From the NCBI RefSeq assembly GCF_030936135.1, contig NC_082632.1, positions 186,001-250,000 of the forward strand: DNA of 64,000 nucleotides, read 5' to 3'. This DNA is from Gavia stellata. Lineage: Eukaryota > Chordata > Aves > Gaviiformes > Gaviidae. A program made the translations under genes and the position numbers. Positions 29,932 through 57,022 of this stretch are shown here, one piece after another (the first letter of the stretch is position 1; each line of letters starts with the position of its first letter). The notes beneath the pieces were generated by a model. It was not told the DNA's origin. It did not search any database and saw only the letters and a list, made by a program, of their open reading frames with translations.

Positions 29932-31273
29932 ATGCTGAAGAAGAGCAGCCTGGTGTTGTGGGGGGCGGCGCTCTTCATCGCCTGGAACGGCCTCCTCCTC
30001 CTCTTCCTCTGGAGCCGCCCGCCCTCCCCGGCCTCCCCCGGCGAAGGCGACCGACTGACGGCGGAGGTGATCCGTTTGGCGCAAGATGCCGAAACCGAAT
30101 TGGAACGGCAAAAAGAACTCCTGCGCCAAATTCACCGCTACAGCGGGTTGTGGGGACGACGGCGCGGGGTTAGAATCACCCCCAAACCCTCCCCGCCGCC
30201 CTCCCCGCCACCACCGCCGCCGCGACTCACCGATCCCGCCGGCGCGGTGTTACCGGTCTTGGTGATGGCTTGCGACCGCAGCACCGTCCGTCGGTGTTTG
30301 GATAAACTCCTACGCTACCGACCTTCGGCCCAACGTTTCCCCGTCATCGTCAGCCAGGATTGCGGTCACGCCGAAACGGCTCGCGTCATCGCCTCCTACG
30401 GCGACGCCGTGGCTCATATCCGACAACCCGATCTCAGTGATATCCCGGTGCCGGCGGAGCACCGTAAATTCCAAGGTTATTATAAAATCGCTCGGCATTA
30501 TCGTTGGGCGTTGGGACAGGTTTTCCGGACCTTCCGTTACCGCGCCGCCATCGTGGTAGAGGACGATTTAGAAGTCGCTCCGGATTTTTTCGAGTATTTC
30601 CAAGCGACGTTCCCGCTCCTCCTCGCCGATCGCAGCCTCTGGTGCGTCTCCGCTTGGAACGACAACGGGAAAGAGCAAATGGTGGACGTGGGACAAGCCG
30701 AATTGCTTTACCGGACTGATTTTTTTCCCGGTCTCGGTTGGTTGCTTTTAGCCGAACTTTGGGATGAACTCGAACCCAAATGGCCGCGAGCTTTTTGGGA
30801 CGATTGGATGCGTCAACCCGAACAGCGCCGAGATCGTTCCTGCGTCCGCCCCGAAGTCTCCCGTACGATGACGTTCGGTTCGTAAAGGAGTGAGCCACGG
30901 GCAATTTTTCGATCAGTATTTAAAATTTATCAAACTTAACGACCATTTCGTGCCTTTTACCCAACTGGATCTTTCTTACCTCAAAAAGGAAGAGTACGAA
31001 CGTTCTTTCCTCCCCAAGGTTTACGCTGCGCCGGAGGTGAGGGTGGAAGAGCTCCAGGGGAACCGGCGGCGGGAGCTGGGCGCCGTCCGGTTGCAGTACA
31101 GCAGCCGCGATTCCTTCAAAGCCTTCGCCAAAGCCCTGGGGCTGATGGACGACCTCAAATCCGGCGTCCCCCGCGCCGGTTATCGCGGCATCGTCAGCTT
31201 CGTCTACCGGGGCCGTCGCGTTTATCTCGCCCCACCTTCCGACTGGAGGGGTTACGATCCCAGCTGGAGTTAG
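29932..31273 (+). CDS. MGAT1: MGAT1, N-acetylglucosaminyltransferase I (one apparent 1-base insertion)
   Basis: Medial-Golgi type II enzyme that adds the first GlcNAc to Man5 N-glycans, the gate to hybrid and complex N-glycans. Single coding exon, with acceptor at 29902 and start MLKKSSLVLWGA. Residues about 7-27 are the signal anchor (LVLWGAALFIAWNGLLLLFLW), followed by a proline-rich stem. The catalytic domain shows VMACDRSTVRRCLDKLLRYR, IVSQDCGH, KFQGYYKIARHYRWALGQVF, the metal-binding EDD in VVEDDLEVAPDFFEYF, CVSAWNDNGKEQM and FFPGLGWLLL. At 30880 one T too many makes a stop (30883-30885) after MTFG; from 30881 the expected RKGVSHGQFFDQ and the rest, to DPSWS, continue in the next frame. 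Without that base the protein is 446 aa, matching the mammalian 445. Conservation on both sides favours an assembly error or very recent change. N-terminal codons use GCG/CCG heavily. Confidence 0.96.
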
Positions 31274-32060: not shown

Positions 32061-33090
32061 GGCTTGGAGTACTGGGGTTTGGCAGGGGGCATAATTTCTG
32101 CTGCTAAAAAGCCCCTTTTATGTTAAAAAAAGCCCCTTTTAAACTGAAATAAACCCTCAGACGCCGCTTGGGGTGGGGGGGTGGGGGGGAAATGTCCCAC
32201 TCGGCTTTGTTTTGGGGTGAAAAAAGCCTCTTTTCGGAGCAGGGGAAGTTATGAAATGGAAGAAACTGAATGAAATTATGAATTTTTATCCCAAGAATTT
32301 GGGATAAGAAGAGGGGGGAAAGGGTGGAGAGGGGAACTGGGCAGACTGGCGACACTGGGAGGGATTTATGCCCACCCCCCCAGGAGCATTTGGGTTAAAT
32401 CCAGGTGGTTTTAGGGGTATTTTTGGAGCCGTTTCCTCACACTGTGTGGGACCAGTTTCCCCCCCACCTCCACTGCTGGTGCTGAGAACACCAAATTTCC
32501 TTATTTTCACTTAAAAGGGGGACAGTCCGCCCAAAAAATGGGGGTTCTGGGGTTTTTCAGCACTTTCGCCTCGAGGCAGCGGTGCGAAGCCCCTCATTTA
32601 TTAACCAATTCCTCCCCAATTTGGGGTTTTCTTCCCTGCGGGCTCTGTTTTTGAGGTGGAAAATCCCTGTTTCCCATCGCGCTGGCTGCTCGCCCCGGGG
32701 AAAGTGCCCAAAATGGGCCAAACCTCCCCAAAACCAAAGGATTAAAAGCCCCGACACTCCCCCGGTTTGCACTGGAGCTGTACTTTGGGGCAAAATATGC
32801 TCAAATTGGTGTCTTTTGGGTGTAACGAGATGGTGATTAAAAAAAAAGAGCCTTTTGAGCACCGTTTCTGTAAACACCCGCCGATTATTCACCCGAATAG
32901 TTACGAATCCGACCCCCGAAATCCGCCTTTTTCCACTTAAAATGGACCCCCATGAGGAGCCGGGGGGGGGGGGGGGTGTAACGCTCCCGCCCTCGCAGGG
33001 CAACCGCAGTCCTCACTCCGGTCCGCCCCTCCGAGCGCGCCGCGCTTCGCCGGCTGCGCGGTTTTCACTCAGGTCCGCTCCTGAGGCAGG
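32061..33090. other. Intergenic, nothing recognised
   Basis: Mixed-composition sequence without repeat array, splice-consistent exon or conserved peptide. It becomes CpG-rich from about 33000, approaching the H3-like promoter. Confidence 0.5.
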
Positions 33091-33119
33091 TAGTGGGAGG
33101 AGGGTACCGCGGGGAGGAG

Positions 33120-33221
33120 CAGCCAATGAGACGCTGCGGTAGCCGTCGAAGCAGCCAATCAGAGCGCGACGGGCTCTTCTAGAAGGCGGGGCGCGGGGTT
33201 TGGTGGGAACAGCTCAGCGGG
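33120..33221 (+). promoter_or_regulatory. CCAAT-box promoter of the H3-like gene
   Basis: Two CCAAT boxes (33123-33127 and 33154-33158, each in an AGCCAAT context) lie about 100 and 65 bases before the ATG, in CpG-dense sequence with GGGCGGGGC-like elements. No clear TATA box. Paired CCAAT boxes are common in core-histone promoters. Confidence 0.6.
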
Positions 33222-33602
33222 ATGGCGCGAGTGAAGCAGGTGGCGGCGGCAGCAGCTAAAAAACCCCCCGAAAACGCTCCTTCTCCAGCCCCAAACCCCC
33301 CTAAAACGCGCCGACCTCCCCGCCGGGCTCCACCGCTGTGGAAAAAGCTCCGTGTCTCGCGGAAAAAAAGCCTTAAGCTGCTCCCTGCGGCCTCTTTTCG
33401 CGGTTTGATGCGAGGCTTTTCTGTCACTCGGGGCGGTTTCGCCATCCTCGGCACTGCCGTGGCGGCTCTGCGGGAGGGCTGCGAGGCGCATCTGCTGGAT
33501 CTGCTTGAGGAGTGGGGCCTGTGCGCTCTCCACGCCAAACGATCCACCATCCACATCGCCGACGTGAGCCTCGTGAGGTGCCTTCGGGTGAAAAGAGGCT
33601 GA
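33222..33602 (+). CDS. Highly divergent histone H3 / CENP-A-like protein, intronless
   Basis: 126 aa. Residues 1-45 are a basic, Ala/Pro/Lys-rich tail with no recognisable ARTKQ start. Residues 50-126 align with the H3 histone fold: LKLLPAASFRGLMRGF over the alpha-N/alpha-1 part, AVAALREGCEAHLLDLLEEW over alpha-2 (H3: ALQEASEAYLVGLFED), LCALHAKRSTIHIADVSL over loop 2 (H3: LCAIHAKRVTIMPKDIQL), and VRCLRVKRG at the end (H3: ARRIRGERA). A VTRGGF segment in loop 1 recalls the TRG of CENP-A. The intronless structure, histone-type CCAAT promoter and basic tail fit a histone. It lacks the near-invariant H3 sequence, so it is a variant: a centromeric-type or germline H3 is possible. Chicken is reported to have a CENPA gene in its MHC, but I cannot test orthology. 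No histone stem-loop was seen; ATTAAA occurs at 33709. Confidence 0.8.
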   Translation: MARVKQVAAAAAKKPPENAPSPAPNPPKTRRPPRRAPPLWKKLRVSRKKSLKLLPAASFRGLMRGFSVTRGGFAILGTAVAALREGCEAHLLDLLEEWGLCALHAKRSTIHIADVSLVRCLRVKRG

Positions 33603-33714
33603 TTTCCCCCACCCCAGCGCTGGAGAGCCGGCTCCAGGCCTGCTGAGCTACACAGAAAGGCGGATTTTTTTGTTGTTTAGACTTTATTTTCTTGGCGTGG
33701 GCTTTCAAATTAAA

Positions 33715-35045
33715 ACTCTATCAAGCTTTTCAGAGGAAAAGCAGAAGGAATGGAGCACCAGGAGCTCGTTTGTTGGAGCAGGATGCTGTGAAGAAGCACT
33801 TTGATTTGTGCTCGCGACACGAAGCATCGCTGGACCTTGTGCTGTAACGAGCCCTCACGTTTTGAGGGCAACATCACCTATGACCTACCTCATCGTGAGC
33901 CAAGCGGGGAAACAACTAATTACACAACCGAGCCAGGCTGTAATTTGGGTTTAGCGGTGATCTGTGGGTTTGTCAGGGGCCTTATTTAAGATTAGGCCCC
34001 CGAAGATGAAAGCAGCCGCCCTCCCTGCTGCATTTCCTCGTGGTTTTTCCTCTCCCTCGGGCCGATGTCGCGAGTCTCTGTGGATAAGGAGGCAAGTCTG
34101 GCAGCAGAGGCAGAGCAATTGGGGCTGTAAGAGGCAGAGACCTGCCTGGTCATGCCTGCGCTGCCTGATAAGAGCGCTTTATTACGTGGTTTAACCCTAA
34201 TAACGACTTCCTGCTGTCTCAAGGTGCTGGTTTGTTTATTTTTTTCCCCTTTCATTTGCTCTCAGGCACTGAAACAGGGGATAAAATCCTGTCTGTGGCC
34301 TCTCTCCCCGCTCACATCCCAGCAGCGATTGCGAAACCACGGGAAGGGCCCAGCCCAAGCGATCATGGGAGGCACAAGAAGTGGTTTTATCCCATTTCCC
34401 CTAATTTTTCTGTGAATCTTAAGCAGAAACTTCTCCGCTTGCAAAACTTTTCTACGAGGCGTCCACCAGCAGCAGCAGCAAAACCCTTTTTCTTCCTGTT
34501 TTATTTTTTTACGATGATTCTCCCTGTTTTTCTGGGCTGTATTTCCACTGACAAACAGCTGGGGAGACAGAAAATCTCTCCATTTTCCCACTGGGGGTAT
34601 TTCCTCGTGGGGCAATGCAGTGTGACGGGGGGAAAAACCCATTAAATTGTCCAAAAAAAGTGCTTTGGGTGCAGCCCCTCTCCCCAGCATGCAAAATCTC
34701 CCTCTGCTCTGGGTCCATGTGCAATTTCCTCCTCTTTCTTTAATTTTTTCCCCCCTCTATAAAAAATAATAACTAAATGGGTGAAAACCATGCATTCAGG
34801 GTGGGGTTGGTTTGGGAAAGGGGTTTGGGGTGAGCACTGCAAAGCCGCAGTGGAAAGCAAGGTATTCCCTGGGTTTTTTTTTCCCCTTTTCAAGGCTTAT
34901 TTTCACCAGAGAACTACTGGGCAGAGCTGCAAAAAAAGGTGTTTAAGGAAAATTTTGAATCTGTGCAAACCCAGCGAGGAGCAGGAGGGCAAAATGTGAT
35001 TACTTTTGCTAAATTAGGTGTTAAAAGGCAAAGCAAATGGGGCTG
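33715..35045. other. Intergenic, nothing recognised
   Basis: No array, no conserved peptide, no plausible splice chain on either strand. TATAAAAAAT occurs near 34758, on its own. Confidence 0.5.
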
Positions 35046-40842: not shown

Positions 40843-41361
40843 ATGCCGCGTGGGAAGGCCGCGCCGCAGCCATCCACCTCGGGGGTGGCGATGTCGTTGC
40901 CGCAGAAGCGCGGGTGGCCGTCGTTGTCGGAGCTTATTCTGCGCGCTGTTTGCCTCTCGACGAGCCGTAAAGGCGCTTCGTTGTCTGTCATTAAGAAGAG
41001 ACTTGCCACTGAAGGCTACAATGTGGGGCGAAACGGTGGCCGCCTAAAGGTGGCGCTCTGTGCTTTGGTCAACAAAGGGCTCCTGCAGCGGGTGACGGGC
41101 AGCGGTGTCGCCGGTTCGTTTCGTCTCGGCCCTAAGGGTAAGGAGCGAGTGGAGGGACCCGGGCAGCGCGGGAGGGCGGCTGGTAAATCCCGTCAGCGCC
41201 CCACCGGGAAGGCTAAGGGACGGAGGCGCGCTGTTAAAGTTACTGCGCAGCGGTTGAAGAAGCCGCGAAGACCTCGGGGAAAGGCGGCGGCAGCGGCAGA
41301 GGAGGCGGCCGGGGGTGCGGAGGAGGCCGGGGGCCCTGCGGCGGCTGGGAGCGAGTGTTAG
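40843..41361 (+). CDS. Divergent linker histone H1 variant, intronless
   Basis: 172 aa. Residues 1-23 form a short basic/Ser/Pro N-tail. Residues about 25-100 are the winged-helix globular domain: SLSELILRAVCLSTSRKGAS, LSVIKKRLATEGYNVGRNGG, RLKVALCALVNKGLLQRVTG, SGVAGSFRLG. These match H1 ([57 protein letters not shown]), but with Cys residues and other changes absent from somatic H1. The C-tail (101-172) is basic up to about 145 and then Ala/Glu/Gly-rich and acidic, ending GSEC, unlike the Lys/Ala/Pro tail of somatic H1. Start chosen at the first ATG after the TATA box. The 3' stem-loop shows it is of the replication-dependent type. It could be a germline H1. Which named variant it belongs to I cannot tell. 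Confidence 0.87.
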   Translation: MPRGKAAPQPSTSGVAMSLPQKRGWPSLSELILRAVCLSTSRKGASLSVIKKRLATEGYNVGRNGGRLKVALCALVNKGLLQRVTGSGVAGSFRLGPKGKERVEGPGQRGRAAGKSRQRPTGKAKGRRRAVKVTAQRLKKPRRPRGKAAAAAEEAAGGAEEAGGPAAAGSEC

Positions 41362-41400
41362 AGGAGCGTGGTGGATGGAGCAGTAGTGGTTGAACCCAAA

Positions 41401-41416
41401 GGCTCTTTTAAGAGCC
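41401..41416 (+). terminator. Histone mRNA 3' stem-loop
   Basis: GGCTCTTTTAAGAGCC, preceded by CCCAAA and followed by ACCCCAG, 40 bases after the H1 stop: the canonical six-base-pair stem and TTTA-type loop bound by SLBP in replication-dependent histone mRNAs. A purine-rich stretch (CAGCAGAGGAG) about 15 bases downstream may be the U7-binding element. Confidence 0.95.
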
Positions 41417-41539
41417 ACCCCAGGGGGTTCAGCAGAGGAGCTGGTCACGGGGCGGCGGGAGAGCGAGGGGGTGCCGCCTGCCCTCGGCGAGGGCTGGGAG
41501 GGAGGGAGGTGCTCCCCGTCAGCCCTGGGGCGAGGCGGC

Positions 41540-54674: not shown

Positions 54675-57022
54675 ATGGGGACCCTCTGGACGCTGCTGCC
54701 GCTGCTGCCGCTCCTCTCGCTCCCCTCCCCCTCCGCCGGCCCGGCAGGTGAAGGGGGGGAGGGGAGGGGGGACCCGCCTGGAAACTTGAATGAAAACTTT
54801 TCTCCCCACCCCCCCCCCAGAATTCCACCCCTCGGGCCGGGGCGGTGTTGGGCCCACACCTCCGCTCGACGGCCTCACAGGTCTCCTTCTCCTCCTCCAG
54901 CCTCGCCGTGCCCCGCCGTCACCGCCGCCCTTTGCCGCGACGTCCCCGTCTGCGTCTCCATCACCAACTTCACCGACGCGACCTTCGTCCTGCAGAAGCT
55001 CGAGGGGGGGACGTGGAAGCCCCTCGCCCTCTGCCAGCACGGCAGCTGCCGGAAACTCTCCAGCGGCCTCGAGGTTGACATCGGGCTGCGGGACGGGCAG
55101 CTGCGGCTCAGCAATGCCGCTGCCGGAACCTACCGAGCCCAGCGCAGCCTGGACAACGCCTGCCTGGCCGACATCACCTTGTGGGGTACGGGGAGCCGCC
55201 GGCCCGCGCGCCCCGAAATCCGCTGCTGCTTGGCTATGGGTCCTGGGGTGCTTTCTTGGTCAAGTTTCTCGCCGTGCGTCTTTGCGTGGAGCAGCCAGCT
55301 CGCGCACCCCGAAATCCGCTGCTGCTTGGCTGTGGGTCCTGGGGTGCTCTCTTGGTCAAGTTTCTCCGCGTGCGTCTTTGCGTGCGTCTTTGCATGCGTC
55401 TTGGCTTGCATCTCGGTGGGGAGCAGCCGGTTCGCGCACCCCGAAATCCGCTGCTGCTTGGCTATGGGTCCTGGGGTGCTCTCTTGGTCAAGTTTCTTGC
55501 CGTGCGTCTGCGTGGAGCAGCCAGCTCGCGCACCCCAAAATCCGCTGCTGCTTGGCTACGAGTCCTGGGGTGCTTTCTTGGTCAAGTTTCTCGCCGTGCA
55601 TCTTTGCACGTGTCTTTGCATGCGTCTTGGCTTGCATCTCGGTGGGGAGCAGCCAGTTCGTGCACCCCAAAATCCGCTGCTGCTTGGCTATGGGTCCTGG
55701 GGTGCTCTCTTGGTCAAGTTTCTCGCCATGCGTCTGCGTGGAGCAGCCAGCTCGCGCACCCCGAAATCCGCTGCTGCTTGGCTACGAGTCCTGGGGTGCT
55801 TTCTTGGTCAAGTTTCTCGCCGTGCGTCTTTGCGTGGAGCAGCGAGCTCGCGCACCCCGAAATCCACTGCTGCTTGGCTGTGGGTCCTGGGGTGCTCTTT
55901 TGGTCAAGTTTCTTGCCGTGCGTCTTTGCGTGCGTCTTGGCTTGCACCTTGGTGGGGAGCAGCCAGTTCGGGCACCCCGAAATCCGCTGCTGCTTGGCTA
56001 TGGGTCCTGGGGTGCTCTCTTGATCAAGTTCCTTGCCTTGCACCTTGCCATGCACCTTTCCATGCGTCTTTGCATGAGTCTTTCCATGCATCTCAGCATG
56101 CATCTTGGTGGCGAGCAGCCAGCTCGCGCACCCCAAAATCTGCTGCTGGTTCACTATGAGTCCTGGGGTGCTTTCTTGGCCGAGTTCCTCACCCTACACC
56201 TTCCCATGCGTCTTTGCATGCGTCTTCCCATGCACCTTGGCTCGTGTCTTGGCACGCGGCAGAAGCCGCGCGCAGCGCCCCGCACCTTCGCACCGGTCCC
56301 TGCACCCTTCCACACACCTTTCCCCGCTTTTTTCCCCACCTTTGCACCCCGAATCGCACGAACTACCCCCCCCCCCCCACCAAAACCGCAGCGCGGGAAG
56401 ACGCTTTTTTGCACCGCGTGGGGTAAAAACAAGCAAAAGGGGGGGGGGGTGGGGGGAGCATTAATTAATATTAATTAATTTTAATTAATATTATAATAAA
56501 TAACATTATAATAAATTAATATTAATTAATACTAACCTATTTTTCCTCTTTTTCTTCCCGAAGAGCCGCCGCCGCATCTGTGTCTGACCCACACAACACC
56601 TCCCCAGACCACGAAATCCCCGAGCGAGCACAGCCACGGTGCAGGTAAATCCCATCCCGCCCCCAGCCGCTCCCTGCCCTCGCGTCGCTCGTTATTTTAT
56701 ATTTGATATTATTTTTTTTTTAGTTGCAGTTTGGGTCACTCTGCTGGTTTTCTTCGTGATTGTGCTCGGGGCGATCTGGTTCATCTGCACCAGAGGGATC
56801 CGGTGTTCGTGGGATTTGAGCTGCATCAGCTGTTGGATCCAAAAAAAAGGAGAAAATAGGGATTTGGGGGGCAGGAGGTCCAGCCAGGATGAGGCCTCGA
56901 CCCCCAGCTTGGCTTGCAGCTGCCCCCCTTCCCCATTTAACCAAAGAAGTCCTTTATTAACCCGTTTTTTACAATCCAAATTGGTTTTTTTGCAAAAAGG
57001 GAGTGGGGAAACCCCATTATAG
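54675..57022 (+). CDS. Single-domain Ig-like type I membrane protein
   Basis: Four exons, 54675-54747, 54901-55185, 56564-56644 and 56724-57022, sum to 738 nt, 245 aa, with phase-1 junctions as usual for Ig-superfamily genes. Residues 1-24 are a signal peptide (MGTLWTLLPLLPLLSL...). Residues 25-119 are the ectodomain, with one N-glycosylation site (NFT, 47-49), Cys at 28, 36, 42, 69, 74 and 112, and a C-terminal GQLRLSNAAAGTYRAQ like the E-F strands of an Ig domain, but Ala 104 stands where the F-strand Cys is expected. Residues 120-146 are a Thr/Pro-rich stalk. Residues 147-168 are a membrane helix without charges (VAVWVTLLVFFVIVLGAIWF). The 77-residue tail starts with a juxtamembrane cluster (RCSWDLSCISCW) and has no ITIM. 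I do not recognise the family. A distant relation to short MHC-linked Ig receptors such as NKp30 is only a thought from size and setting. Confidence 0.75.
55200..56255. repeat. 98-130 bp minisatellite in the Ig gene intron 2
   Basis: About nine copies containing CCGCTGCTGCTTGGCTATGG, GTCCTGGGGTGCTCTCTTGG, TCAAGTTTCTCGCCGTGCGT and GGAGCAGCCAGCTCGCGCAC. Copy length varies through a CTTTGCATGCGTCTTG sub-repeat. The unit is open in several frames, so frames of up to 562 codons run from exon 2 through it; the splice sites show it is intronic. Confidence 0.93.
56458..56535. repeat. TTAATTAATATTAATT simple repeat
   Basis: AT-only tract of ATTAATTAATATTAATTAAT-like sequence just before exon 3 of the Ig-like gene. 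Confidence 0.9.

Follow-up and report, generated by a model that had tools for sequence, protein, structure and literature searches.

Results

An intronless H3-type gene beside MGAT1

The 64-kb stretch of DNA analysed here (the window; contig C39:186001–250000) carries on its forward strand an intronless open reading frame for a divergent H3-type histone of 126 amino acids (33222..33602), identified through Pfam, PDB, tblastn and genome matches, and this gene is probably a functional, single-copy and replication-independent H3 variant, very fast-evolving and derived from an intronless gene of the canonical, replication-dependent H3 type. The earlier note, made by inspection of the letters, had described an intronless and extremely divergent H3-type gene next to MGAT1, and that description has held: a single unbroken frame leads from the ATG (context CAGCGGGATGGC, with G at both −3 and +4) to TGA, and MGAT1, seen as two GNT-I ORFs at 29932–31273 (415.8 and 167.2 bits), ends ~1.9 kb upstream. 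The open frame by itself has little meaning, because the window holds 133 ORFs of at least 120 amino acids; as judged from the sequence matches, the homology of the encoded protein to histones is not due to chance.

The histone fold that had been read into this frame is recovered by profile search, the Pfam Histone model matching residues 13–122 with 42.4 bits (cut-off 26.4; E 9.7e-11), and the top match among PDB sequences is of H3 type, namely H3.1 (49.6 bits, E 3.8e-12), which together place the protein in the H3 family. H3.Y in the PDB scored 43.0 bits, not above ordinary H3, and CENP-A was absent from the best 60 of the 184 PDB sequence matches (E up to 10). In tblastn searches of the window, the E-value of the ORF was 5.8e-11 with H3.2 as query and 0.14 with human CENP-A, or 1.1e-12 and 2.0e-11, respectively, without composition correction; in the whole genome, the protein matched the canonical H3 genes at E 4.1e-8. 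An NCBIfam search returned no family, and 8 and 118 pattern matches in viral and prokaryote collections, respectively, gave no confirmed relative. The single-sequence AlphaFold model (pLDDT 50.9, pTM 0.28) is too poor to support the fold.

Sequence comparison with H3 and CENP-A

Over the αN helix and histone fold (LWKKLRV to the stop; 33336..33602, forward strand), 88 columns were aligned to H3.1, of which 31 are identical (35%) and 57 differ, in agreement with the earlier statement that the protein departs from H3 at most positions. The corresponding identities are 30/88 for H3.2, 29/88 for H3.3 and 30/87 for H3.Y, as against 34/87 for human CENP-A and 30/87 for the chicken CENP-A chimera 7by0, whereas the alignment scores of the fold are 123, 113, 112 and 107 for H3.1, H3.2, H3.3 and H3.Y and 91 and 98 for the human and chicken CENP-A sequences. 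From α2 onward, the protein is identical to H3.1 at 25/50, to H3.2 at 24/50 and to H3.3 at 23/50 positions, compared with 20/50 for human and 22/49 for chicken CENP-A.

Two of the features first noticed in the sequence require qualification. The TRG taken as a sign of CENP-A is indeed present in loop 1, but the loop lacks one residue compared with H3 and three compared with CENP-A, and the two-residue insertion of CENP-A (relative to H3) was not found there. Likewise, the tail was said to lack ARTKQ, which is true of the exact motif but not as a simple absence, since it begins with ARVKQ (33225..33239, forward strand), identical at four of the five positions; a match to ARTKQ as good as this arose in 56 of 200,000 shuffles of the protein's own tail, and the five identities with H3 among the first ten tail residues were equalled in 285 of 200,000. 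The rest of the tail beyond ARVKQ is not H3-like. At the other end, the protein terminates in LRVKRG, with no CENP-A-type tail beyond RRIRG, the segment that serves CENP-C.

In a tree of 11 rows, the best placement of the protein was with H3, as a neighbour of H3.1 (support 71/82.8), on a very long end branch of 5.0 changes per column; forcing it into the CENP-A clade cost 1.69 log units, a placement that the test does not reject (p-AU 0.103), and its top identity in the tree alignment was to chicken CENP-A (35% over 68 columns). Descent from H3 is favoured over descent from CENP-A by these comparisons of sequence.

Conservation of the retained residues

The retained residues were scored against assumed sets of H3–H3′, α2 H4-contact and DNA-contact positions. 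Seven of the eight H3–H3′ bundle positions are identical (C110, A111, H113, A114, R116, D123 and L126) and the eighth is conservative, so that this interface is preserved; 9/12 of the α2 H4-contact positions and 5/11 of the DNA-contact positions are identical, the equivalents of R53, R63, K64, R69 and R83 being lost. Both the bundle residues and an ARTKQ-type start serve nucleosomal H3. In a manual alignment of five further proteins of the H3 family, the conservation of the 31 retained residues is 0.785 and that of the 57 lost residues 0.574, a contrast matched in strength by 59 of 20,000 permutations. At ~65% divergence of the fold (57/88 positions), the gene shows neither frameshift nor stop, and when neutral decay to the same divergence was simulated, 5.5% of 2000 runs were free of stops (mean 2.75 stops), a fraction that indels and frameshifts would lower further, as the runs included substitutions only. 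Read from the residue pattern, selection appears to have acted on this gene.

Promoter, CpG content and 3′ end

The two CCAAT boxes reported just upstream of the frame are found at 33120 (CAGCCAATGAGA) and 33152 (CAGCCAATCAGA) (33120..33163, forward strand); they are of NF-Y type, lie 32 bp apart and stand at −99 and −67 from the ATG, and no TATA was found in the 260 bp upstream. Among eight distinct canonical H3 genes examined in the same genome, seven have two CCAAT boxes and one a single box, with a spacing of 25–28 bp as against 32 bp here, and all eight have a TATA. Promoters with two CCAAT boxes are not unique to histones. Downstream, an ATTAAA poly(A) signal lies at 33709..33714 (forward strand), and no histone 3′ stem-loop was found in 33590–33900, whereas canonical H3 genes have one soon after the stop (for example, locus L001, coding sequence 1483–1890, stem-loop 1930–1976). 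The gene thus lacks the stem-loop, the TATA and the near-invariant sequence of a canonical replication-dependent H3.

The promoter and coding region together form a high-CpG stretch (33001..33600; CpG o/e 0.97, GC 0.65, neighbouring stretches 0.26–0.72), at a level that is not exceptional, being equalled or exceeded in 43 of 634 windows of 600 bp (upper 7%; median 0.58). The earlier impression of a live gene is in keeping with such features of the sequence as the intact frame, the CCAAT boxes, the high CpG, the G at −3/+4 and the ATTAAA signal. The CCAAT boxes, the missing stem-loop and the ATTAAA signal fit a canonical H3 gene that was copied with its promoter and then became replication-independent, and the promoter would accordingly descend from such a gene.

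Copy number and the search for another CENP-A

The gene is single-copy in the 1.32-Gb genome assembly: a search with its protein gave 13 places, comprising itself, eight canonical H3 genes (36%), two H3.3 places and two at chance level (E 0.17 and 0.42). The Pfam Histone model matched 42 places in the whole genome, about half of which fall in stretches that were read in detail. Whole-genome searches with the CENP-A cores of chicken (11 places) and human (14 places), of which the best candidates were scored, revealed no other CENP-A; the places were canonical H3, H3.3 (including its split exons) and the present gene, with one further chance-level hit of the human core (E 3.0), so that this gene is the only additional H3-type match among the candidates scored. 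One weak match of the Histone profile, at C29:2.52 Mb, was weighed as a candidate exon of CENP-A and dropped, its translation reading like what we take to be NF-YC.

The 73.8-kb contig C334 carries CYP21 and a tenascin gene (presumably TNXB) in tail-to-tail arrangement (loci L040 and L041). Its sequence breaks off within CYP21, towards the 5′ end of that gene, and it is on this side that CENPA is located in galliforms. A human C4 probe matched four places, one on C38, one on C2 and two, ~2 kb apart and within one gene, on C1; by eye, the C38 place looks like C3, the C2 place like an A2M relative and the C1 places the most C4-like. The latter lie on a 133-Mb contig, where a thioester-protein gene (L042, C1:28668800-28671700) shows letters that look C4-like by eye (GCAEQTM, PVLDRTMQ). 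The C4 of the MHC could not be placed among these four, the likeliest candidate lying on the 133-Mb contig.

In chicken, CenpA sits between C4 and CYP21 (PMC4988538), whereas in zebra finch no co-hybridisation of CENP-A probes with other MHC genes was reported (PMC2907588) and MHC clones of the Oriental stork yielded no C4, CenpA or CYP21 (PMC5314415), so that birds outside the galliforms need not share this position. The failure to find a second CENPA in the same genome, about which the earlier note had asked, is therefore weak evidence, because C334 breaks off inside CYP21, where an assembly gap may hide the gene, and because the place of CENP-A in birds is unsettled. The appeal to an assembly gap is itself weakened by these zebra finch and stork data and by the C4-like gene on the 133-Mb contig.

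Neighbourhood and a linker histone gene

Other neighbours in the window are PRY-SPRY and RING/B-box ORFs of TRIM type and a CCCH-finger ORF, and our reading of further ORF translations suggests ABCF1, PRR3 and PPP1R10, the profile search giving for ABCF1 a partial ABC signature below the cut-off. The duck MHC retains a block with MRPS18B–PPP1R10–ABCF1 (PMC10845735), and we infer that the region around the H3-type gene is MHC. Among the matches listed in a search of open-access titles and abstract openings, none described a divergent H3 gene next to MGAT1 or within the MHC of a bird. The N-terminal part of MGAT1 occurs at one place in the genome, and the reading frame of this gene is broken between its two GNT-I ORFs (30885–30890, forward strand). 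The break may be a base error of the assembly or a real lesion; in the former case, base errors would count against the reading of the H3-type gene as well. The interval 54675–57022 (forward strand) contains orphan ORFs that may encode secreted or Ig-like proteins and that include a membrane-spanning stretch; they run into a coding-like repeat, and no credible Pfam match was obtained for them.

About 7 kb from the H3-type gene, and outside the main histone cluster, the window contains a divergent linker histone H1 gene (40843..41361, forward strand; 172 amino acids from the ATG, with the frame open from 40696; Linker_histone 47.8 bits). Its globular domain is ~50% identical to three of the four H1 loci of the same genome, the fourth (L036) giving no match at E 1e-3, and in a genome list of 14 H1 places it scores 50.3 bits, below ten (69–95) and above three on C27 (31–39). 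A TATA lies 121 bp before its ATG, and a histone 3′ stem-loop (CCAAAGGCTCTTTTAAGAGCCACC; 41396..41419, forward strand), in which six of six stem pairs form, matches RF00032 with 29.7 bits (E 3.9e-7) in a search of 131 bases, which falls short of Rfam's gathering score (34), and it was not listed when the whole window was searched at gathering scores. This H1 gene is a possible companion of the H3-type gene. Directly after it, a long minisatellite array of AAGAGCTGCACTGAGGG-type units with periods of ~40, 120 and 196 extends from 41528 to at least 43641.

Discussion

H3 is among the most conserved of proteins, and the vertebrate H3 variants that have been described, CENP-A apart, differ from it, to our knowledge, at few positions. 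The present gene resembles those of canonical H3.1/H3.2 in its H3 fold, intronless coding sequence, ARxKQ start, two CCAAT boxes and the LCA-HAKR-TI stretch at loop 2, and is unlike them in its 35% fold identity, a shorter tail without ARKS, a loop 1 with one residue deleted, and the lack of a TATA and a 3′ stem-loop. With CENP-A (cenH3) it has in common the TRG of loop 1, a divergent Pro/Arg-rich tail, leucine at H3 position 112 and an apparent linkage to the MHC, which for CENP-A is that of galliforms; it is unlike CENP-A in having no loop-1 insertion, no CENP-A-type C-terminal tail, an ARVKQ start and a locus other than that of chicken. The germline or lineage-specific variants H3t, H3.5 and H3.Y, of which H3.5 and H3.Y are replication-independent, are likewise non-canonical H3 proteins, but carry few changes from H3, compared with 57/88 fold positions here. 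The mammalian short H2A variants (H2A.B and H2A.P), which evolve fast and have lost DNA contacts, offer a functional analogy only, as members of the H2A and not the H3 family.

It is assumed that the protein, if expressed, would use its conserved α2, α3 and C-terminal residues to pair with both H4 and another H3-type molecule. Beyond histone pairing, the nucleosomes thus formed may grip DNA loosely, because several arginine and lysine contacts are gone. The tail keeps R2, K4 and Q5 of H3 and has no ARKS motif, so that K9-/K27-type silencing and S10/S28 phosphorylation would be impossible in their usual contexts. The protein likely acts in the germline (testis or oocyte), if other rapidly evolving histone variants are a guide. 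If the gene is live, its 57/88 fold changes, its K4 and its missing ARKS would make it a natural experiment on what parts of H3 a histone can do without.

A dead or dying gene, an old H3 copy either with a frame that has stayed open by chance or with selection only recently lifted, would account for the extreme divergence and the lost DNA contacts, and is given some room by GC-rich DNA in which long ORFs are common (the 133 counted above) and by the 5.5% of neutral substitution-only runs that stay open. However, the absence of stops and frameshifts at such divergence, the preserved H3–H3′ and H4 interfaces, the tracking of family conservation by the retained residues (59/20,000 permutations), and the survival of two CCAAT boxes and of high CpG make this explanation unlikely. 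A histone-fold protein that is no longer nucleosomal and acts, for example, in another complex could also have lost the equivalents of R53, R63, K64, R69 and R83, but would hardly be expected to keep both the seven H3–H3′ bundle residues and ARVKQ, and we regard it as very improbable.

The earlier note named a fast-evolving CENP-A as the main alternative, on which view the gene would be the bird's own CENP-A, or a paralogue of it, changed so far that it is no longer easily recognised. Loop 1, with its TRG, speaks on both sides, being three residues shorter than in CENP-A; the Pro/Arg-rich tail and the LLE and LHA residues are as in CENP-A (the residues as in that of chicken), but the ARVKQ start, the LRVKRG end without a CENP-A-type tail and the intronless structure are not. 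The p-AU of 0.103, at which the CENP-A clade is not rejected, and the slightly higher raw fold identity (34/87 with human CENP-A, 31/88 with H3.1) leave room for this alternative, as does the failure of the chicken and human cores to find another CENP-A when the split H3.3 exons were found, although this absence may be an assembly gap at the C334 end. The locus, by MGAT1 and TRIM-type ORFs and not at C4–CYP21 as in chicken (PMC4988538), points away from CENP-A, but the galliform arrangement need not apply, to go by the zebra finch (PMC2907588) and stork (PMC5314415) reports. Furthermore, the CENP-A cores of chicken and human share 77% identity, and a near-total loss of likeness in one bird would be unexpected. 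We consider this alternative about as unlikely as a dead H3 copy, and retain a functional, replication-independent H3 variant as the preferred reading.

A wider reading, which we consider doubtful, is that the gene represents an undescribed, MHC-linked and germline-expressed class of sauropsid H3, keeping K4 without the K9/K27 silencing motifs and several DNA contacts, and forming with the divergent, replication-type H1 a dedicated chromatin state, the pair being a relic of a histone–MHC linkage of the mammalian type. An H1 and H3 pair in a bird-like MHC region bears on the ancestry of that linkage. Histone and tRNA genes are found in the mammalian extended class I region (PMC12619710). In the present genome, H2A and H2B genes share a small contig (L014, C200:69500-75000) with tRNA-Gln, -Lys and -Ser, which recalls that mammalian region, and from the two arrangements one might guess, by analogy, at an old link between histone genes and the MHC.
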